Positions 14,098 to 24,247 of a stretch of DNA of 37,655 nucleotides are shown in pieces. Position numbers and translations under genes: made by a program. The notes under the pieces are model-generated. The model made no database searches, was not told where the DNA came from, and worked only from the letters and a program-made list of their open reading frames with translations. Position 1 is the first letter of the stretch; each line of letters starts with the position of its first letter. This DNA comes from Gilvimarinus polysaccharolyticus (lineage in GTDB: Bacteria; Pseudomonadota; Gammaproteobacteria; Pseudomonadales; Cellvibrionaceae). The DNA is taken from contig NZ_LFIJ01000003.1 of NCBI RefSeq assembly GCF_001187555.1, positions 1-37,655 on the forward strand. The letters are read 5' to 3'.

Positions 14098-16110
14098 CTA
14101 TGTGCCAATCACTCCACCATCGTTTTTGGTTACCACAACAGTAGTGGAGCGCGGCCGAGTTTTACCATCGGAGGCAGGGTAACTCAAGCCCGGATGCTGC
14201 ACGTTAAACCACAACGTGGTGCCATCTGGGGTGCCAGTTAATCCTGTTATTTCGCTGCCGGCAGGCCCTGTCATAAAACGGCGCACTTCGCGCGTCACTG
14301 GATCGGCGCACAGCAACTGATTCATCCCCTGAGTAAGGTAGGGTGCTTCTCGCTCGTCATAATCAGTGGCGATCCATAAACGGCCATCGCCATCAAACCA
14401 CAAGCCATCAGGGCATGAAAAACGATCTCCAGTTAGTGGCGCTAATGCCCCGCTGCTATCAGGTGCACTCAACGTTGGCCCCGCCAACAAAAACAACTCC
14501 CACTCAAAGGTCAGCGCCGCTGGGTGCTGATTATGCTCGCGCCAGCGCAAAATTTGCCCGTGGTGGTTTTCGGCTCGCGGGTTTGCCGCATCTAACGGCG
14601 AGCCAAACGCTACCCCACGCAGATGATTATTGGTTAACGAAACATAACCATCGGCCGACTGCGGGTGGACCGCCACCCACTCGGGGCGATCCATCGGTGT
14701 CGCACCCACTAAGTCCGCAGCGCCACGAAGGTTGATCAGCACATCTGCCTGCGAATAAAAACCTCGCTCCGGCGTCAAACCGTGTTGCCCGTAAATTAGT
14801 GGCCGCCATTCACCGCGACCATCCGCGTGGTACACCGCACAATAAACTGTGCCGGAATCAAGTAGCCGTCGGTTCGCGGCAAGGTTATCTGGGTCAAATT
14901 TACCGTCGGGTACAAACTTATAAACGTACTCACCGCGAGTATCATCGCCGGAGTAAAACGCTAAGCTACCATCGTCTGCCTGTACGCAAGTGCAGCCCTC
15001 GCGCACCAAACGGCCCAGTGCAGTGCGCTTAATCGGCACCGCTGTAGGGTCAAACGGATCGAACTCTACCACCCAGCCAAAGCGGTTAGGTTCATTAACA
15101 AAGCCACCATGGGGCAAGTCTGGGTTAAACGTCGCATCAAAACGTTCGTCGGCCGACTCCCAAAAATATTTGTGGCTGTGTGCACCGGTCGCAACGCCGT
15201 AGCGCTGCTGGCTGGGTCGGTGCTGCCAATCGCTTTGGTCGCGATTGACAAAATAGTTTTTCCAGTTCTCTTCACAAATTAAATACGTGCCCCACGGAGT
15301 CACCCCCATCGAGCAATTATTTAACGTGCCCAGCACGCGTGTTCCAGTCGGGTCTTGTGCGGTCTTCATGGCGTCACTGCCAGCTGCAGGGCCACTAATA
15401 TCCATTGCTGTATTGGCCGTCAAACGGCGGTTGTAGGGCGATGCCGCTACGCGCTGCCACTGCCCTGCCCGACGCTCAATTTCAATCACGCTAACACCGT
15501 GAGCGGCCTGTTCTTTTGCCACCTGATCGATAGGGCGCAACTTGCGACCATCACTCGCACTCACCACGCAGGGCCCTTCGGGGTGCAGTGTGTCATTGGT
15601 GTACTCGTGGTTGACTACGAGCAAGCCATGCTCATTAGGAGCATCTGATAATGGGAAATAATGCATGCCGTCATTATTTTGCCCCGCTTGTAGCTGTTGT
15701 TCGGCGGCATTGTTGCTGGCGTTTTTCTGCCATACCGGTGCGCCCTTTACGACCTCATCGCCCCAACTAAAAAAAGCGCTCGCGGTGTAACCGTCGGGGA
15801 CGGTAACCACATCGACATTCTCGCCCAGCGCTGCTCCGACCGGTGTAAAGCTAATCTTAGCTCGCAGAGCATCCTTAAACGTAGTTTTTACAGGCTTTGT
15901 AACACAACCACTTAACGAAAAAGGCCCGGCGAAACTCGCCAGGCAAAGCATCATGGAACCTGTCGCCAGCGTGCGCCGGCTACAGGAGAGCTCCCAAAGG
16001 GATGGGTTGCCAGCCGGGTTAACCGCGATATCATCAATATCATTAACACCGTGCGCGGTTAAATCCGACTGTAAACTGTTGCTGTTATTAAACGTGTAGC
16101 GTTTACTCAA
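14098..16110 (-). CDS. phoX: PhoX-family alkaline phosphatase (DUF839), Tat lipoprotein
   Basis: PhoX enzymes are Ca/Fe-dependent phosphomonoesterases that release phosphate from organic esters outside the cytoplasm; they are common in marine bacteria and induced by phosphate starvation. The body keeps family blocks NHEYTND (167-173), NNCSMGVTPWGTYLICEEN (264-282, with the Cys that ligands iron in the Pseudomonas enzyme and the acidic pair) and PDGLWFDGDGRLWIATD. Residues 44-69 form a Tat signal (SRRTLAT) ending in a lipobox LSGC (Cys69), preceded by an unusual 43-residue cytoplasmic lead. The ATG overlaps the phytase stop by 8 bp, so the two are coupled. It is the last gene of the receptor-phytase-phosphatase operon and is convergent with the RND gene. 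Confidence 0.88.
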   Translation of the reverse strand: MSKRYTFNNSNSLQSDLTAHGVNDIDDIAVNPAGNPSLWELSCSRRTLATGSMMLCLASFAGPFSLSGCVTKPVKTTFKDALRAKISFTPVGAALGENVDVVTVPDGYTASAFFSWGDEVVKGAPVWQKNASNNAAEQQLQAGQNNDGMHYFPLSDAPNEHGLLVVNHEYTNDTLHPEGPCVVSASDGRKLRPIDQVAKEQAAHGVSVIEIERRAGQWQRVAASPYNRRLTANTAMDISGPAAGSDAMKTAQDPTGTRVLGTLNNCSMGVTPWGTYLICEENWKNYFVNRDQSDWQHRPSQQRYGVATGAHSHKYFWESADERFDATFNPDLPHGGFVNEPNRFGWVVEFDPFDPTAVPIKRTALGRLVREGCTCVQADDGSLAFYSGDDTRGEYVYKFVPDGKFDPDNLAANRRLLDSGTVYCAVYHADGRGEWRPLIYGQHGLTPERGFYSQADVLINLRGAADLVGATPMDRPEWVAVHPQSADGYVSLTNNHLRGVAFGSPLDAANPRAENHHGQILRWREHNQHPAALTFEWELFLLAGPTLSAPDSSGALAPLTGDRFSCPDGLWFDGDGRLWIATDYDEREAPYLTQGMNQLLCADPVTREVRRFMTGPAGSEITGLTGTPDGTTLWFNVQHPGLSYPASDGKTRPRSTTVVVTKNDGGVIGT

Positions 16111-17992
16111 GGCCCAGCTCCTCGGCGATGGCTTGCCAACTTACAGCTTTAAAGTTTTGCGGTTGTTCAGGCATGACGTTGTGCCCGTCTTGCGCAATAA
16201 AAGCACCTAGCTCATAGCCTTTTCCCAGTGAGCGGTGAGTCACCTCTAAACCATCGGTTTCCGAGATTCCATCAACGCCCAGCGCAGTGTTTGCTGCCAC
16301 CCTAAATTTACCCAACGTGGCGTAAGGTGCTTGGCTTTGCAACACAAGGTAAGTGTTATCGCCTTGACTCGAAGCAATCAAATAACGACTATCGTTTGCA
16401 GGGTACAGCGCTAACCCCTCCACATCGTCTACCAGCTCATCATCGATCATTTTCACTTCTGTTATATTGCTTGGATCTGCGGCTTTTGCCGATAACGCCC
16501 AGATGCCAACATCTTCCTCACCAATAAATAACTGCCCGCGTGCGTCGTCGGCAACGCACCCCTCAGGCTGCGACTTAACACTAAATTCACGCACTTTTTT
16601 ACCAAACACTTGACCGTCAGAAGCGCTTAGCTGGTATTGCTCAAAGCGGCCACTTTTTCCATTGGCAAATGCGTAATAAACATCACCGTCTTGGTACATA
16701 CACAGGCCGTAAATTTCTTCCAAACCCGTTGGCACTTCAGCGCGATACGTTAACTCGCCGGTCGCAGGGTTAAGCTGATAAACCGACAATGAGTTATGGT
16801 CGCGTTGACTGGCTACAGCAATGTCACCGCTGGTGCCGCTCCAATTAAAACCATACCGCAAGTCGACATTGTTTAATCGACCCGTAGGCAGCATTTGCAC
16901 CTGCTTGCCATCTAGGCGGTAGGACAGCAGCCCATGCTTTTTATCGGTACCAATAATTCGGCTAGCAGCGGGATCACTTGGGTGCACCCAAATGGCGGGG
17001 TCATCAGCGGCATCACCAAAACGGACAACCGGATCTGTTTCCATAGTTGGTTTAACGGTGGCAATCACTTTTGCCGTAACCGGCAGCAATTGCGCTAGCG
17101 TTACAGAGTCAGGCAGAGCCCACATATTTTGGTGAATTAATCCGGTGTCATCGTCGCGAAGTAGCGTATGCAATTGTTTGTCGTCACTCGAAAACCATGC
17201 GCGCAATGCCTCCGGCTCGCCTAAACCTTCGAGCTGCCCCACAATATGGCGAGTGAAACTGCCGTCGCCCTGTGTGTAAAGTGCAAGCTGATGGCTCTTA
17301 GCACTTACCGCGATCACACTAGAACCTACAACCGCAAGTGTTTCACTCGCGCCAGCCAACGCACCAAAAGGCTCTGCCATATCCACCACGGCTCGGCTCG
17401 CAGGTAACTCTGGGTCGGCGGGGTACTGCCAAATTCCCACAGATTCTTCTGCTGCGTATAAGTTACCGTTGTTATCACTCGCACAACTGGTAACGTTAGG
17501 GGCAATAGCTAAGCGGCGCACTAAGGTCGGATCGACAGGACCGCTTTCGTCTGCCATCAACCACTGCTCAGCACCGCCTCGCTCATCGACGACAAACAGC
17601 GAAATATCGCCATCCAAGTTTTTATCCAGACAAAGAGCCTCGGGTAAAAAAGCTGGCGCCGGAGCTTGGACGGCAACCGCGACCGATTGCGCTTCAGTGT
17701 TTATGGTTAACAATGTCGGGAGGTAGTTCTCACCCATCAAGGTTGCGCCGTAGAGCGTATCAGTAGCCGCTACAACATCCAATAACTCAGCCTGTTTTAC
17801 GCCCAGATTTTTTATCGTCGCATCGGGGTTATACCAGTTCAGTGTGCCGGCATTATCCAGTAGCAAGTAACTTCCCGGCGCCACCGGCACTAAAGCAGCA
17901 GCTTGCATATCCGCTACGGCGGTTGTCGTAGCGGCGCACGCGGCCATACTGGCACTTGCCATTAGCGCACAACATAATCGAAGTATTTTCAT
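16103..17992 (-). CDS. Beta-propeller phytase, two-domain lipoprotein
   Basis: Hydrolyses phytate (inositol hexakisphosphate), using Ca ions in a six-bladed propeller. The C-terminal half (about 315-629) has the catalytic signatures DAADDPAIWVH (327-337), NNVDLRYGF (374-382) and the GEEDVGIW segment (491-498). The N-terminal half (30-310) repeats the fold in degenerate form: AEESVGIWQY at 181-190 mirrors 491-500, but its DxADDPAIW motif is missing. Two-domain phytases of this kind are known, with the first domain aiding activity or binding. The signal peptide ends SMAAC (Cys19), a plausible lipobox, so it is probably outer-membrane anchored. It lies between the TonB receptor gene and phoX, overlapping the latter. 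Confidence 0.9.
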   Translation of the reverse strand: MKILRLCCALMASASMAACAATTTAVADMQAAALVPVAPGSYLLLDNAGTLNWYNPDATIKNLGVKQAELLDVVAATDTLYGATLMGENYLPTLLTINTEAQSVAVAVQAPAPAFLPEALCLDKNLDGDISLFVVDERGGAEQWLMADESGPVDPTLVRRLAIAPNVTSCASDNNGNLYAAEESVGIWQYPADPELPASRAVVDMAEPFGALAGASETLAVVGSSVIAVSAKSHQLALYTQGDGSFTRHIVGQLEGLGEPEALRAWFSSDDKQLHTLLRDDDTGLIHQNMWALPDSVTLAQLLPVTAKVIATVKPTMETDPVVRFGDAADDPAIWVHPSDPAASRIIGTDKKHGLLSYRLDGKQVQMLPTGRLNNVDLRYGFNWSGTSGDIAVASQRDHNSLSVYQLNPATGELTYRAEVPTGLEEIYGLCMYQDGDVYYAFANGKSGRFEQYQLSASDGQVFGKKVREFSVKSQPEGCVADDARGQLFIGEEDVGIWALSAKAADPSNITEVKMIDDELVDDVEGLALYPANDSRYLIASSQGDNTYLVLQSQAPYATLGKFRVAANTALGVDGISETDGLEVTHRSLGKGYELGAFIAQDGHNVMPEQPQNFKAVSWQAIAEELGLE

Positions 17993-18067: not shown

Positions 18068-20848
18068 TTAAAAATTGGTAATAGTGACGCCCAATTTATA
18101 AGTTAAGCCGTAGTTCTCGTACTGCGCACCGTAAGACGTATCATTAATGTAAGCGTAGTAAGGCTCATCGGTTAAATTAGCCGCCTCCAGGTAGAGCTGA
18201 ATACCATCGGTAATATAGTAGCGCGCCGAGAAATCTAATTGCGTCTGCTCATCTACGTAGATATCTTGCTGTGCATCGCTAACGTCCTGAACCTCTAATA
18301 AATACTCGGACTTATAGTTCGCAGCCAAACGCACGCTAAAACTACTTGCCTCATAACCCATCGATACATTACCGGTAGTGTCCGACTGACTGGGCATGGC
18401 GCTATCACGACTGACAATGCCACCGGCATCTTCATCAAAATACGTAAGGCTCGCGTCGGAGGCCGAGAAAGTCGCATTCGCTGACAGCAGCAAACCATCG
18501 AATGGAGCAGGCAGTGAGACGAACTGCTTTGAAAAGGCCAACTCAACGCCATAAATATTGGCAGAGTCACCATTCGCGTAACTGATTGCCTCATCGTAAT
18601 CGGCGTACATTTCGGTGCCGGCGAGATCGGTTTGATAAATAAAGTTATCAATATCTTTGTAGTAAGCAAAAGCCGAAACCACACCGGCTAAGCCCATGTA
18701 GTGTTCAACACCCAGATCAAAATTACTGGACTCTAGCGGCTCCAACTCCGGATTGCCAAACTCGGCTTCTTCATCATCGATCACAAAGAACGGCGCCAAC
18801 TGATCAAAGGTCGGACGCACCAAGGTGTTTGTCCAAGCACCGCGCAACTGCGTGTTATCACCAAGGGAGTAGCGTGCATGCAACGACGGCAACAAGTGGT
18901 CGTACTGGTTGTCGGCACGATTGTCCTCAAAGGTATCGCCGTCGTAGCGGGTTCCCAGCGCATCAAACTCAGTGTCCTCGTAACGCACGCCCGCCAACAA
19001 CCGCAGATCACCCAAGTCGATTCGGCCCATCACATAGGCGGCCAACACTTGCTCCGATACATCAAAGTCCTCAATGCGTGAATCTTCCTCGGAGTAAAAG
19101 TCGGCTTGATCCAGCCCAGCAACCGCGGCAACAACACTCGTCGAATCAATGCCGGGGCCAAACTCGCCCAAACTATAATCACGATTGGCCGTCGCATAAG
19201 AAGTCATCAGCAGCTGATCATCACTAAAACCCTGCTCATCAAAGTCTTCGTACACCCAGACCTCTACATCGCTGTCTTTGTCGCGATCGCTGTACTTACC
19301 ACCAAACTTAACCATAGCCGAGTGGGAGCCGACAAAAAAATCTTTGCTAATATCAAACTGCCAACTAGTGTCGGTGTCATTGGTGTTCGATTTAGCCAGC
19401 TCTACCTCGTCCAGCTCGTAACTGGCGGCATTTACAAAACTCGCGGGAGTATTTAAATAAGGAGTCGCCGTATCACTGAACGATACGCCCTCAATGTCAT
19501 CAATACTGGCGAACACAGCGCCACCTAGATGCTGTGGTTCGTCTTCGCTGGACTCTGACAAGGCCACGCGATAATCCAGTGTCCAGCTGTTGACGCGAGT
19601 ACTACCGCCTAACGAGGTCGACAGAATCTTCTGTGTTTCGGTGCGATCTTTAAGCTCGCGGGCTACCTCAGCACTGCTGCTAACGCCCTCTGCGATGGCG
19701 TCTGAAAACTCAACGATATTGGCTAAACGCTGTTCAGAGTCAGTGTATTCACTGTAAAGGTTACGCCAATATAAATCGGTGTTGTCGGACAACTTATAAT
19801 CAACATTAAAAGTCATGCCCGAGCGTTCACGAGCAATCGTGTAATCGCGCTGCTCGATCTCCTCCAACAAGGCCTCGCCATCATCAAAATCCCACGCGCC
19901 ACCGGTTTCGATATTATCCGAGCCAAACTCGCGATCGTACCAACTAACTCCAGCGGCGATACCAAGGTTGTCAGTGCCACGGCCAACGCTAAATTTATCT
20001 GATCCCGTTAACGCAAGTTTAGGGCTGAAGTTATCGGTCAAATCGTTATAGCTACCCTCGGCGGTCAAGGAATAAAACTGTCCGTCACGATCAAATGCCG
20101 ACAGACTTTGGATGTCGATACTGCCGCCCAATGCGTTGGCATCAAGATCTGGGGTTAACGTTTTAGTGACCACTAAGCCTTCCAGTAAATCTGACGGGAT
20201 CACATCCAGCGCTACCGCGCGGCGTCCGCTATCGGGAGACGGCAAGCTCACACCGTTAATGGTGACAGCGTTGTAATCTGGCCCCAAGCCACGCACGCGC
20301 ACATAGCGGCCCTCACCTTGATCGCGCTCGATCGACAGACCAGGCAAGCGTTGCAACGCCTCCGATACATTAGTATCGGGGAGCTGGCCAATGGCATCGG
20401 ATGACACCGCACTGACAACATTATCGGCCGAGCGCTGACGGTTTAGTGCTTTGTTTAAGCTACTTGCTTGCCCAAGCACAATCACATATTCCTCTACCGC
20501 ACGCTCTGGCCTAATTTTAAAATTAGCCACCAGCGTTTCATTATCCACCACGGTAATCTGGCGCGTCATAGTGTCCACCCCGAGGTAACTCACACTTAAC
20601 GTGTACTCACCCGGCTTAACACCGTTCAAAACAAAACGACCATCGCGAGCGGTCACGGCGCTTAAGTTAAGCTCTTCAACTTTTACCCGGCTGCCCTGCA
20701 GTGGCATACCGCTAATTTCGGCAGTCAACTGACCATTAATACGGCCATCCGCCAAAGCATTGCCGGCCATTAATGCGCCCACGACGCAAGCCAATAAGTT
20801 GCGCTGCCATTGTTTGCCTATCGGCAATACTTGGTTAGTCTGTGTCAC
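18068..20848 (-). CDS. TonB-dependent receptor of the phytate/phosphate-ester operon
   Basis: A 926-aa outer-membrane receptor. Signal peptide (cleaved after ALA, residue 33), a carboxypeptidase-regulatory-like beta-sandwich domain (35-113), a TonB-box-like strand (EEYVIVLG, 119-126), the plug domain (about 135-240, with VRVRGLGPDYNAVTINGVSLP) and a large 22-strand barrel ending in NF. It belongs to the Oar/IroN-like branch often used for sugars and other large nutrients rather than iron. Being first in an operon with a phytase and a PhoX phosphatase, it most likely imports phytate, lower inositol phosphates or the complex they form. The GTG start is supported by AGGAGAGGGG five bases upstream. 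A Pho-box-like promoter lies about 90-120 nt upstream. Confidence 0.92.
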   Translation of the reverse strand: MTQTNQVLPIGKQWQRNLLACVVGALMAGNALADGRINGQLTAEISGMPLQGSRVKVEELNLSAVTARDGRFVLNGVKPGEYTLSVSYLGVDTMTRQITVVDNETLVANFKIRPERAVEEYVIVLGQASSLNKALNRQRSADNVVSAVSSDAIGQLPDTNVSEALQRLPGLSIERDQGEGRYVRVRGLGPDYNAVTINGVSLPSPDSGRRAVALDVIPSDLLEGLVVTKTLTPDLDANALGGSIDIQSLSAFDRDGQFYSLTAEGSYNDLTDNFSPKLALTGSDKFSVGRGTDNLGIAAGVSWYDREFGSDNIETGGAWDFDDGEALLEEIEQRDYTIARERSGMTFNVDYKLSDNTDLYWRNLYSEYTDSEQRLANIVEFSDAIAEGVSSSAEVARELKDRTETQKILSTSLGGSTRVNSWTLDYRVALSESSEDEPQHLGGAVFASIDDIEGVSFSDTATPYLNTPASFVNAASYELDEVELAKSNTNDTDTSWQFDISKDFFVGSHSAMVKFGGKYSDRDKDSDVEVWVYEDFDEQGFSDDQLLMTSYATANRDYSLGEFGPGIDSTSVVAAVAGLDQADFYSEEDSRIEDFDVSEQVLAAYVMGRIDLGDLRLLAGVRYEDTEFDALGTRYDGDTFEDNRADNQYDHLLPSLHARYSLGDNTQLRGAWTNTLVRPTFDQLAPFFVIDDEEAEFGNPELEPLESSNFDLGVEHYMGLAGVVSAFAYYKDIDNFIYQTDLAGTEMYADYDEAISYANGDSANIYGVELAFSKQFVSLPAPFDGLLLSANATFSASDASLTYFDEDAGGIVSRDSAMPSQSDTTGNVSMGYEASSFSVRLAANYKSEYLLEVQDVSDAQQDIYVDEQTQLDFSARYYITDGIQLYLEAANLTDEPYYAYINDTSYGAQYENYGLTYKLGVTITNF

Positions 20849-20935
20849 TGCCCCTCTCCTGTGATAATAATCGTTGTGGTGGGCGCGCCTTAGTTAACGG
20901 TGTAACGACGCGTCATCCAGTTACTTGGTGCGCCG

Positions 20936-20969
20936 ACGATAAAAAGACAAAGTGACAGTGCTGTGACAA
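20936..20969 (-). promoter_or_regulatory. Pho-box promoter of the receptor-phytase-phoX operon
   Basis: On the minus strand TTGTCACAGCACTGTCAC (20969 down to 20952) is a direct repeat of TGTCAC with an 11-bp period, matching 14 of 18 positions of the E. coli Pho box. Exactly 10 bp further downstream is a -10-like TATCGT (20941 down to 20936). PhoB-activated promoters have the box in place of the -35, 10 bp before the -10, which fits. Confidence 0.75.
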
Positions 20970-21021
20970 GCACCTATCAATACCGAGCAAACCGGCCTTT
21001 AACTGGGGTTTTATCTGGCCT

Positions 21022-21077
21022 GTGAGCTAAGCGGCCCCCCAACTCACCGCCGCAGGGCCGCTCACGGCAAGCCCTGC
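21022..21077. repeat. Competing inverted repeats between the two Pho-box promoters
   Basis: GCGGCCC (21031-21037) can pair with GGGCCGC (21055-21061), with GTGA/TCAC extending the stem. The alternative arm GCAGGG (21053-21058) can pair with CCCTGC (21072-21077). The two pairings share bases and exclude each other. The element is upstream of both predicted start sites, so it may be a DNA-binding palindrome rather than RNA. Confidence 0.45.
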
Positions 21078-21142
21078 AGCTCAAGACGACGCTCTTTTTA
21101 TATAAAACTGGCATGTAGCCTGAGCTGATTTGCCCCCTCGGA

Positions 21143-21176
21143 CTGTCACACAACCGTTACATTGGCTTGCTATAGA
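21143..21176 (+). promoter_or_regulatory. Pho-box promoter of the GGDEF gene
   Basis: CTGTCACACAACCGTTAC (21143-21160) matches 14 of 18 Pho-box positions. It is followed after 10 bp by a -10-like TATAGA (21171-21176), the same layout as the divergent operon's promoter. The GGDEF start codon is 28 nt beyond the -10. Confidence 0.65.
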
Positions 21177-21204
21177 CATACCCTACGTTTTTTAGGACAA
21201 CATC

Positions 21205-22122
21205 ATGATTCGGTTACATAAGTGGAAGCTATTGGCGATTGCCCTGATCACCAACATCACCATTCTGATTAGCCTTGCCGTGGGAGAAATTAAAACCTGG
21301 CAACAAATCGACTGGCTCGACATCATCGGGGAAGGGGGCGTTAGCTTACTTGCAGCGCTATGGCTTGGTTTTGCACTTAACAGTCGCCCCAACGGCCCTG
21401 TCACGAACTTATTAACCCTAGGACTCGGGCTAATTTTTGTCGGCACTTTTCAGGATTTACTCGATGAACTCGTGGCGATCGACAAAGGGTTATTTTTAAA
21501 CAGCGGACTGGAATCAACCCTGATGCCTATCGGCCTGACAGTACTCACCTTTGGCCTGTATCACTGGCACAAAGAACAACTGCTGTTTACCGAACAGCGC
21601 CGCAAACGCGAGCAAGTTTTTAGAGAGTATCGTTTGCAAGATGGCTTAACGGGGTTGGGCGATGCGCGCTTTTTACGCCAACAACTGAGCCTGGCACTGC
21701 GGCACGCCAACAGCGAGCAACAACCGTTGGCGTTAGTGCTACTAGACATTGATCACTTTGATTCAACCAACCGCCGCTTTGGCCATGCGGAGGGCGATCG
21801 ACTGCTACAAGCACTTACCGAGATTATCTTGCTTAATTTACGCCGCACCGATTTATTGTGTCGTTACGCAGGCGATAGGTTTGCCGTGGTCTTACCCAAC
21901 ACGGGCGAACTAATGGCGCGCGAAATTACTGCGCAACTAAGCCGCGCGGTCGAGCACTTTGCTTACAAGACGGCGCAGCAGGGCGAAACGCTGTACCAAA
22001 GCATCAGTACCGGCATCTGCACCGCCGAGGAAGACAATGCCGAAGCAATGATTGAACGGGCAACGACTCGCTTACTGCACGCTAAAGACAGCAAAGCAAA
22101 CCTACGCGTTGTGGCCGCTTAA
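21205..22122 (+). CDS. Membrane GGDEF-domain protein with degenerate active site
   Basis: A 305-aa inner-membrane protein: four predicted membrane helices (7-27, 38-59, 68-90, 104-122), a short charged coiled coil (123-142), and a C-terminal GGDEF domain (about 143-300). The signature reads AGDRF (222-226) instead of GG(D/E)EF, and the guanine-binding Asp after N189 is Arg190; DIDHF (181-185) is kept. The inhibitory I-site RxxD (R213-D216) is intact at the normal five-residue spacing. This suggests a c-di-GMP-binding receptor or weak enzyme rather than a normal diguanylate cyclase. The ATG has AGGA upstream. A Pho-box-like promoter precedes it, and the AraC regulator gene begins one base after its stop. 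Confidence 0.88.
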   Translation: MIRLHKWKLLAIALITNITILISLAVGEIKTWQQIDWLDIIGEGGVSLLAALWLGFALNSRPNGPVTNLLTLGLGLIFVGTFQDLLDELVAIDKGLFLNSGLESTLMPIGLTVLTFGLYHWHKEQLLFTEQRRKREQVFREYRLQDGLTGLGDARFLRQQLSLALRHANSEQQPLALVLLDIDHFDSTNRRFGHAEGDRLLQALTEIILLNLRRTDLLCRYAGDRFAVVLPNTGELMAREITAQLSRAVEHFAYKTAQQGETLYQSISTGICTAEEDNAEAMIERATTRLLHAKDSKANLRVVAA

Positions 22123-22123
22123 C

Positions 22124-23143
22124 ATGAAAGAGACGAGCCATTACGAAATCGACACAGCCTGTATTCCGGCGCACGAATTCCCCGCGGCCCTTATCGACCT
22201 CGCCTGCAGCCGAGGGCTACACAGCGACAAACTATTACGCGGCACCGGAATATTTATGGAGGATGTGCTCACCGGAGAATTAACTCTGCGGCCCGCGCAA
22301 TGCTTTGCCTTACTTGGCAATTTACGCAAACTACTGCCGGCGGCCGACAGCGCTTTTCTAGCCGGAGCCAGATTGTACCCCGGCAATTTTGGCCCAGCCG
22401 CAAGTGCACTGCAAAGCTCTGCTAATTTACTGGCGGCGATTCAAGTTATCGTTAAGTATCAAGCCATTTTGTCACCACTGCTTAGCCCAAGACTTGAGTG
22501 GCACTGCGATGCTTTGTTTATCCACTGGCACGACGCTTGTGGCGCCGGCGAGCACATTGCATTTTTAGCCGACATGATGATCAGCGCGCTAGTCGCCACC
22601 ACCAAACATCTGGCGGGGCGCACACTGCCGTGGCAATTTTATTTACCCGGCGAGCCCGATCATCGCGAGCAATACCAAGTGCATTGGGGGCCGCACCTGC
22701 ACACCGGCAGTCATCAGTACAGCATGCAGATAGCACGTAAAGAGCTTGAGCAAACGTGGCCAGGCGCGGCAACCAGCGTCAACCAAATAGCTAGCCGACA
22801 ATGTGAGCGTCGCTTGCAACAGGGTTCTGCCGAAGGGTTTATCACCGCGTTCGATAAATATTTACGCAACCACTTACCCTGTAATCCATCGTTAGAGACA
22901 GCGGCCAACGAGTTTGCCATCAGCCCGGCCACACTCAAACGCAAGTTAAAAAAGCATCACACCAGCTTTCAACTACGCTTTGATCTAGTGCGTAAAGAGC
23001 AGGCCTTATTCTGGCTAACACACGAGCAGTTGCCGCTCGCCGAGATCGCGGCGCGGCTGCACTTTCACGATACCCGCAACCTGCGTCGTGCGTTTAAACG
23101 CTGGACCGGAATGATACCCAGCCAGTTGCTCGCCGCACACTAA
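22124..23143 (+). CDS. AraC-family transcriptional regulator
   Basis: A 339-aa DNA-binding regulator: N-terminal arabinose-binding-like effector domain of the OruR/ArgR type (about 15-200) and a C-terminal double helix-turn-helix (about 240-335). The recognition segments are FAISPATLKRKLKKHHTSF and IAARLHFHDTRNLRRAFKRWTGMIPSQ. An in-frame start at 22052 would overlap the GGDEF gene by 71 bp. I chose the ATG at 22124, one base after the GGDEF stop, giving translational coupling. The effector and targets are unknown. Position suggests it responds within, or controls part of, the phosphate/c-di-GMP locus, but no binding site can be named from sequence. Confidence 0.88.
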   Translation: MKETSHYEIDTACIPAHEFPAALIDLACSRGLHSDKLLRGTGIFMEDVLTGELTLRPAQCFALLGNLRKLLPAADSAFLAGARLYPGNFGPAASALQSSANLLAAIQVIVKYQAILSPLLSPRLEWHCDALFIHWHDACGAGEHIAFLADMMISALVATTKHLAGRTLPWQFYLPGEPDHREQYQVHWGPHLHTGSHQYSMQIARKELEQTWPGAATSVNQIASRQCERRLQQGSAEGFITAFDKYLRNHLPCNPSLETAANEFAISPATLKRKLKKHHTSFQLRFDLVRKEQALFWLTHEQLPLAEIAARLHFHDTRNLRRAFKRWTGMIPSQLLAAH

Positions 23144-23215: not shown

Positions 23216-23257
23216 CCGCGCTAAACCCTACGACTTTGACTTGCCGTGAGACCTTCG

Positions 23258-24247
23258 ATGACCAAGATCCGCTGGGGCGTGTTAAGCACGGCCAAAATTG
23301 CCCGATTACACACCATCCCTGCTATTCAGTCTTCTGCCTTGGGCGAGGTTGTCGCGATCGCCTCACGCGATGCGCAAAACGCCCGCACGCAAGCCGACCT
23401 GCTCGGTATCACCCGTGCTTACGGCAGTTATGAGGAATTACTAAAAGACCCGGACATCGATGCCATTTACAACCCGATGCCGAATCACCTACACGTACCT
23501 TGGTCGATCAAGGCCCTAGAGGCAGGTAAACATGTACTGGTAGAAAAACCTGCCGGTCTTAATGCCACCGATTTGGAGCCTTTGCTCGCCTGCGCCGAGC
23601 GCCACCCAGAGCTAAAGTTAATGGAGGCGTTTATGTACCGCTTCCACCCCCAATGGCAACAAGCCAAGCAGTTGTGCGATGCAGGCGCGATCGGCACCCT
23701 GCGCACTATTCAGTGCGCGTTTAGCTACAACAACCGCGACACCAGCAACATCCGTAACAGCGCCGCTATGGGTGGCGGAGCACTGATGGATATCGGTTGT
23801 TATGGCGTGTCTTTGGCGCGCTACTTACTGGGCAGCGAACCGACTCGAGTACTCGGCCACCTAAACAACCTAGGGGATTACGAGGTCGACTGCATTAGTT
23901 CGGCGTTAATGGAGTTTGATGGCGCTATCGCCAGCTTTACCTGCTCGACCAAAACCGAGCCCGAGCAGTGGGTAGAGATTGCCGGCGAGGCCGGCAGCAT
24001 TCGCCTCGCGATCCCGTTTAACCCAATTGCCGACGCCGCAACCGAGCTCACCCTTAAACAAGCCGATAAGCTCCAGCGCTACACCATTGAGCCGGCCAAC
24101 CACTACCGCAATATGACCGATGCGTTTGCCGAGGCAATATTGCATAATAAGCCTGCACCTACACCGATGACCGATGCATTGAGCAACATGACCGCAATAG
24201 ACGGTATTGTCGCAAGTGCCAACGCTCAAAGCTGGGTAAGCTTATAG
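23258..24247 (+). CDS. Gfo/Idh/MocA-family NAD(P)-dependent oxidoreductase
   Basis: A 329-aa cytoplasmic sugar-type dehydrogenase: N-terminal Rossmann fold (IRWGVLSTAKIA at residues 4-15, an atypical glycine pattern common in this subgroup), the conserved VEKPAGL motif whose Lys takes part in catalysis, and a C-terminal substrate domain with GGGALMDIGCYGVSLARYLLG. The closest recognisable relatives are the xylose/glucose-fructose and dihydrodiol dehydrogenase-like members; the substrate cannot be fixed. A GTG at 23246 is in frame, but ATG 23258 fits the family start. A LacI-type operator and a TATAAT box precede it, pointing to sugar-responsive repression. It appears monocistronic, with 126 nt to ndh. 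Confidence 0.88.
   Translation: MTKIRWGVLSTAKIARLHTIPAIQSSALGEVVAIASRDAQNARTQADLLGITRAYGSYEELLKDPDIDAIYNPMPNHLHVPWSIKALEAGKHVLVEKPAGLNATDLEPLLACAERHPELKLMEAFMYRFHPQWQQAKQLCDAGAIGTLRTIQCAFSYNNRDTSNIRNSAAMGGGALMDIGCYGVSLARYLLGSEPTRVLGHLNNLGDYEVDCISSALMEFDGAIASFTCSTKTEPEQWVEIAGEAGSIRLAIPFNPIADAATELTLKQADKLQRYTIEPANHYRNMTDAFAEAILHNKPAPTPMTDALSNMTAIDGIVASANAQSWVSL

Follow-up and report, generated by a model that had tools for sequence, protein, structure and literature searches.

A phytase control region with two Pho boxes, a probable AraC-family operator and helically phased spacing in Gilvimarinus polysaccharolyticus and related bacteria

How might a phytase operon be told both that phosphate is scarce and that its substrate is at hand? 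The question is raised by a 356-bp gap (20849-21204) in a 37,655-nucleotide stretch of Gilvimarinus polysaccharolyticus DNA, hereafter the window, which separates a leftward receptor–phytase–PhoX set from a rightward GGDEF–AraC pair. The leftward set, on the minus strand, starts with a TonB-dependent receptor gene (18068-20848, listed start GTG; TIGR01782, 613 bits, cut-off 310), continues with a beta-propeller phytase gene (16103-17992; PF02333, E = 3.6e-98) and has, third leftwards, a PhoX alkaline phosphatase gene (14098-16110; PF05787, E = 2.7e-154). Clusters of a TonB receptor and a beta-propeller phytase are already known, and the two genes are likewise adjacent here. The plus-strand pair consists of a gene for a membrane protein with a degenerate GGDEF domain (21205-22122; PF00990) and a gene for an AraC-family regulator (22124-23143; Arabinose_bd, PF12625, and HTH_18, PF12833). 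The AraC protein carries the C-terminal double helix-turn-helix domain (PF12833, E = 9e-14; PF00165, E = 1.6e-08). Past the AraC gene, a GFO/IDH/MocA oxidoreductase gene (23246-24247), inositol dehydrogenase-like but under the curated cut-off, occupies the same place in all seven genus relatives.

The divergent Pho promoters and the loci compared

PhoB-activated sigma-70 promoters carry, in place of a -35 element, an 18-bp direct repeat (the pho box) exactly 10 bp before the -10; the PhoB repeat length is 11 bp. Both sides of the gap follow this plan, with two 7-bp direct repeats at an 11-bp period. Pho box 1, TTGTCACAGCACTGTCAC (20952-20969, minus strand), faces the receptor–phytase–PhoX set and lies 10 bp from its -10 element TATCGT (20936-20941, minus strand). 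Pho box 2, CTGTCACACAACCGTTAC (21143-21160, plus strand), faces the GGDEF–AraC pair and lies 10 bp from TATAGA (21171-21176, plus strand). A scan with the consensus sigma-70 model returned no -35/-10 pair at either Pho promoter. The divergent pair of promoters, each with its box exactly 10 bp before a -10, had been proposed in the original prediction and is borne out, the arrangement being kept in relatives.

The two boxes differ in quality within the window. Pho box 1 with its -10 is one of only four exact matches to TGTCAYN4YTGTCAYN10TA in the whole 3.74-Mb genome; the other three precede a Porin_4 gene (L019), a PBP_like_2 solute-binding gene (L021) and the next gene in the latter's cluster (L020), whose product has no Pfam identification. 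Pho box 2 is weaker, with two mismatches to the pattern, and at up to two mismatches the genome holds 30 matches versus 24 for the reversed control. Taken alone, this box is no better than background. Relatives have theirs at the same place beside site 2 (see below), often nearer the consensus than that of the window, and judging from this conservation we regard both Pho boxes as almost certainly real and conserved.

The region was compared across a discovery set of 74 loci, comprising the window, 7 genus relatives, 7 named records and 59 others. An order-wide search matched the receptor at E <= 1e-150 in 60 of 390 genomes. The class-wide search at E <= 1e-200, a cut-off that misses distant relatives, matched, apart from the genome of the window, only 1 of 369, so close receptors appear to be rare outside the order. 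Fifty-five of the 74 discovery loci have a GGDEF and/or an AraC gene, one of them being admitted on an AraC copy that lies farther off and carries a stop. The remaining 19 lack a nearby AraC match; 18 of these were assessable, L146 (a 132-bp stretch) being excluded. Absence of AraC was judged within about 4 kb upstream for L147-L163, and L142 and L146 gave no AraC match genome-wide at 1e-15. Two loci, L010 and L011, repeat L050 and L054 and were left out, and L014 and L229 are apparently one record that stands in both the discovery and the test sets. We note that in L154-L159 and L162, which belong to another genus of the window's family and have no nearby AraC gene, a PhoX-like gene lies beyond the receptor, on its other side, and is oriented away from it.

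A conserved direct repeat between the boxes

The conserved element between the Pho boxes, absent from the original prediction, is a direct repeat of the pattern TGAGCTnATTTGmCCCC in two same-orientation copies. Site 1, TGAGCTAAGCGGCCCCC (21023-21039, plus strand), has one mismatch to the pattern, and site 2, TGAGCTGATTTGCCCCC (21121-21137, plus strand), is the only zero-mismatch match in the genome; both copies are conserved. That prediction had placed a possible site for the adjacent AraC protein between the promoters, in overlapping inverted repeats. The proposal survives in spirit, the element itself being a direct repeat.

Loci with this gene arrangement nearly all contain the motif. At a score of at least 22 out of 24 it is present in 152 of 158 (52 of 55 discovery and 100 of 103 test loci), with L130, L137, L141, L264, L270 and L290 falling below. 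By comparison, among receptor loci with no AraC gene nearby, 0 of the 18 that could be assessed reach this score, an imperfect control because these receptors are more distant relatives (36-44% identity). Lowering the threshold to at least 19 captures 55 of 55 discovery loci (two copies in 48, one in 7) and 102 of 103 test loci (two copies in 93, one in 9, a contig end truncating the stretch in 5 of these), leaving one test locus with none. At this threshold L142 and L154, both without AraC, have one copy each, and none of the 18 AraC-less loci has two. Weak copies may be chance, as 5.5% of 2600 shuffled regions yielded a match of at least 20. Twenty-eight motif-bearing loci were counted as AraC-less: 27 lie in stretches that end before the AraC gene (1.5-kb flank or contig end), and in the remaining one, L123, the AraC match lies about 5 kb upstream and contains an internal stop. 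The best copy is oriented toward the GGDEF gene in 55 of 55 discovery loci, for which both strands were scanned; in the test loci only the strand facing the GGDEF gene was scanned.

Several features make the AraC-family protein the natural candidate, and probably the one that binds sites 1 and 2. As at AraC/XylS-type operators, a conserved, asymmetric element of about 17 bp adjoins the AraC gene. An AraC-family monomer has two helix-turn-helix units, so that a 10-bp offset of subsites is expected, and within the motif TGAGC and TGmCC start 10 bp apart. In L128, where AraC is present and the fetched stretch has no GGDEF match, both motif copies are kept, indicating that the sites go with AraC. 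From these sequence comparisons, the direct repeat is very probably an AraC-family operator. The right-hand operon has decayed in the genus of L128, L123 and L164: their fetched stretches hold no GGDEF match, each has two operator copies, and the AraC gene is intact in one, carries an internal stop about 5 kb away in L123, and is cut short in one.

Conservation in 77 non-redundant loci is concentrated in the motif, whose columns are strongly conserved in both copies. Between the copies, profiled over the 80 bp that follow site 1 and the 70 bp that precede site 2, no column exceeds 0.61, and a zone about 15-35 bp before site 2 is richer in A+T (0.52-0.58 versus about 0.40). Between Pho box 1 and site 1 (20970-21022 in the window), many loci share A/T tracts spaced by about 10 bp in otherwise divergent sequence, perhaps as bent DNA or as contacts for the polymerase alpha subunit. 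Motif position 13 is C instead of A in the Gilvimarinus clade and near kin. Of the 11 loci with C13, 10 have R at AraC residue 318, in the second helix-turn-helix, a residue that is mostly A (59) or T (34) in the 105 with A13. This covariation, essentially confined to one clade, is only suggestive of a specificity contact. A wider AraC regulon was considered and rejected, the genome-wide motif count (59) not being above that of the reversed control (52). The three other one-mismatch matches in the genome all fall inside open reading frames, one of which encodes another TonB receptor.

Spacing of the sites and its possible causes

In the window, Pho box 1 and site 1 are 54 bp apart, sites 1 and 2 are 98 bp apart, and site 2 and Pho box 2 are 22 bp apart. 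Over many species these three distances shift mostly in steps of about 11 bp. The site 1–site 2 distance ranges from 85 to 207 bp in the discovery set, with clusters at 85-88, 96-99, 107-109, 119-121, 130-132 bp and onward (R = 0.75 at 10.9 bp, n = 48); overall, the spacing classes are 86-88, 96-99, 107-111, 119-121 bp and so on. Scorer, period and phase were written down before the test loci were scored, 26 of the 103 having already been retrieved, unscored. The prediction held, with a V-test at fixed period and phase yielding V = 0.314 (P ~ 9e-6, n = 93). For test loci up to 160 bp, a split absent from the written prediction, V is 0.62 (n = 50). Non-redundant test loci, which have little sequence in common with one another and exclude those that share more than 15% of 11-mers with discovery, give P = 1.6e-5 up to 160 bp (n = 24) and P = 9e-4 up to 330 bp (n = 40), locus-level values that treat loci as independent. 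Path-disjoint contrasts on the receptor tree reduce that problem; excluding by design contrasts below 6 bp, they give P = 5e-4 (n = 54), and P = 4e-5 for the 26 up to 160 bp.

The pooled data agree: of 93 spacings up to 160 bp, 80 fall no more than 2 bp from a multiple of 10.9, where 37% would be expected. With redundant loci removed, the pooled set is fitted best by a period of 11.1-11.35 bp at motif thresholds from 18 to 22; at each of ten settings, none of 5000 sets with jittered or uniform spacings equalled the observed value. Depending on the subset, the fitted period is 10.9 to 11.35 bp, which fits the 10.95-11.6 quoted for lac-repressor loops in vivo in excerpts of PMC1762422. Among the 34 test loci at 161-240 bp phasing is not significant (V = -0.05; at 10.9 bp, Rayleigh P = 0.15), and 9 of the 93 test spacings exceed 240 bp. 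The non-significant result at 161-240 bp could reflect either a relaxed torsional constraint or the absence of a loop. Weaker phasing at longer distance fits a loop and no constraint alike and is not counted as support. Up to 160 bp, the region has the two separated, helically phased half-sites of an araBAD-type loop. A site answering to its neighbouring box alone would leave the site 1–site 2 spacing free to vary. Since the distance does not drift in this range, the two halves appear to feel each other through the helix, and on the spacing data we consider helical coupling between the sites probable.

The Pho box distances were taken from 134 loci with spacings of at most 330 bp (at a threshold of at least 19, Pho box 1 is present in 124 of them and Pho box 2 in 105). 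Pho box 1–site 1 is 55 bp in 78 loci, 54 in 20, 44 in 17, 65 in 4, and 43, 56, 64, 74 and 76 bp in one each; all 15 independent contrasts are 10-12 bp, contrasts below 4 bp being excluded by design for both Pho box distances. Site 2–Pho box 2 is 22/23 bp in 54 loci, 33/34 in 19, 44 in 3, 54/55 in 10 and other values in 19 (contrasts: n = 22, P = 7e-5). Phasing between a Pho box and a site need not mean a helical face, 11 bp also being the PhoB repeat length.

These observations suggest the following scheme. At low phosphate, PhoB~P would bind both Pho boxes and start transcription leftward (TonB receptor, phytase, PhoX) and rightward (the degenerate-GGDEF membrane protein and the AraC regulator). 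The AraC-family product of the right-hand operon would bind the two direct-repeat half-sites between the boxes, and its dimer would bridge them, looping the intervening DNA in the manner of E. coli AraC at araO2 and araI1. It would also contact PhoB or RNA polymerase at each box, and may act as activator, repressor or both. DNA would be gained and lost mostly in steps of about one turn because such contacts need fixed helix faces. The simplest link between the two halves would be a dimer that spans both sites. We infer the identity of the bound proteins, the loop, the PhoB contact and the ligand. Taken as a whole, an AraC-family dimer that loops two half-sites and contacts PhoB, gating the genes by low phosphate and substrate, is in our estimation fairly likely. 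The stricter version, in which PhoB and the AraC-family protein form one helically phased complex that acts as an AND gate, its geometry kept by whole-turn insertions and deletions across several families, is put forward tentatively, at somewhat less than even weight.

Could the same distances arise without a loop? Each AraC-family protein might act locally at the Pho box beside it, the gaps being taken up by arrays of PhoB in 11-bp units, so that the quantised distances would represent whole PhoB monomers or same-face contacts. The sharpest quantisation is indeed that of Pho box 1–site 1, where all 15 contrasts are 10-12 bp, PhoB repeats measure 11 bp, and phasing between the sites is not significant at 161-240 bp. 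This explanation nevertheless does not account for site 1–site 2 spacings that, up to 160 bp, are also phased in the discovery, test and contrast sets, and the profiled stretches between the sites in the 77 non-redundant loci contain no conserved Pho box-like block (maximum column 0.61). We regard it as unlikely. Less likely still, at long odds, is that both Pho promoters are of the ordinary kind, that the repeat serves AraC autoregulation, and that the phasing is left over from shared ancestry. Many loci do come from one genus, and the site 2–ATG distance, which is not expected to matter, also reaches R = 0.42 at 10.9 bp; some apparent phasing therefore comes from common descent alone. A second control, Pho box 2–ATG, gives V of 0.19-0.36 at 10.9 bp (P = 0.22 and 0.09) from 7-8 contrasts only. 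Against ancestry, non-redundant test loci up to 330 bp and the path-disjoint contrasts both retain the site 1–site 2 phasing, and none of the jittered sets reached the observed value at any of the ten settings.

The inverted repeats named in the original prediction, GCGGCCC/GGGCCGC and GCAGGG/CCCTGC, do occur in the window. Dinucleotide shuffles of the 174-bp interval equal the observed counts in 5% (8-bp arms), 1.7% (7-bp) and 2.2% (6-bp) of cases, uncorrected, making the repeats mildly unusual in the window's sequence, yet they are not kept. Neither pair is found in any of the seven genus relatives; GCGGCCC, the left arm, which belongs to the first copy of the conserved direct repeat, is retained alone in one. 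Of the two elements whose conservation in close relatives was in question, the Pho boxes are therefore conserved and the inverted repeats are not, and a functional role for the latter is rejected. That they switch between two hairpins or cruciforms is extremely improbable: for all their mild excess over shuffles, they are missing from the genus relatives and lie upstream of both start points, so that no transcript from these two promoters contains them.

Relation to known systems and the second signal

The closest parallel to the favoured reading, an AraC-family dimer looping between sites 1 and 2, is E. coli araCBAD, in which AraC loops between araO2 and araI1 through direct-repeat half-sites of about 17 bp at divergent promoters. 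The present region shares the AraC-family gene beside the control region, the half-sites of about 17 bp in direct repeat, the divergent promoters, and helical phase dependence (PMC8053113). In contrast to araCBAD, each half-site is near a Pho box, the predicted loop holds neither promoter, the proposed partner is PhoB instead of CRP, and the phasing comes from natural variation, not from engineered insertions. The region likewise departs from other PhoB-activated sigma-70 promoters in that an AraC-family operator accompanies the boxes, with phased distances on both sides. Most demonstrations of helical phasing rely on insertions engineered at a single promoter. In this case nature supplies the experiment in 141 spacings (48 discovery, 93 test), and quantisation is seen in three separate intervals. 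The components are of known kinds. In the open-licence PMC papers searched, we found no description of a divergent degenerate-GGDEF–AraC pair or of a shared, phased phytase control region, and their phased combination on such a region is undescribed there.

The nature of a second signal is suggested by the literature on Pseudomonas phytases and on the induction of PSPPH_2990 and PSPPH_2994. According to excerpts of PMC5082522, phytate is a major source of organic phosphorus in some soils and three Pseudomonas strains grow on it; there the phytases are described as "unexpectedly not part of" the PHO regulon, with no evidence of PhoBR control in the three strains, and a response to phytate alone is suggested. 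Excerpts of PMC2803797 describe induction by bean leaf extract of two P. syringae pv. phaseolicola genes four tags apart, PSPPH_2990 for a phytase and PSPPH_2994 for an AraC protein; from the gene order this is likely the same cluster as here. The AraC protein would most likely sense phytate or an inositol-phosphate product. If it does sense a phytate-type signal, the phytase set would be on only with both low phosphate and substrate. Such a phytate-type AND gate is conceivable, and we place it just short of an even call. If true, it would account for the apparent independence of Pseudomonas phytases from the Pho regulon in the absence of phytate, and it offers a testable answer to the puzzle of their apparent position outside PhoBR control as excerpted from PMC5082522.

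In the membrane protein of the right-hand operon, the GGDEF motif reads AGDRF, in place of the GG(D/E)EF with an acidic fourth residue of active diguanylate cyclases. Among the 147 of 148 GGDEF matches long enough to align, none has an acidic fourth residue (R in 145, K in 1, S in 1), and the RxxD I-site, intact in the window, is kept in all 147. The protein is thus likelier, by these residues, to be a c-di-GMP receptor than a cyclase. Its gene is conserved beside the AraC gene, under a Pho box.
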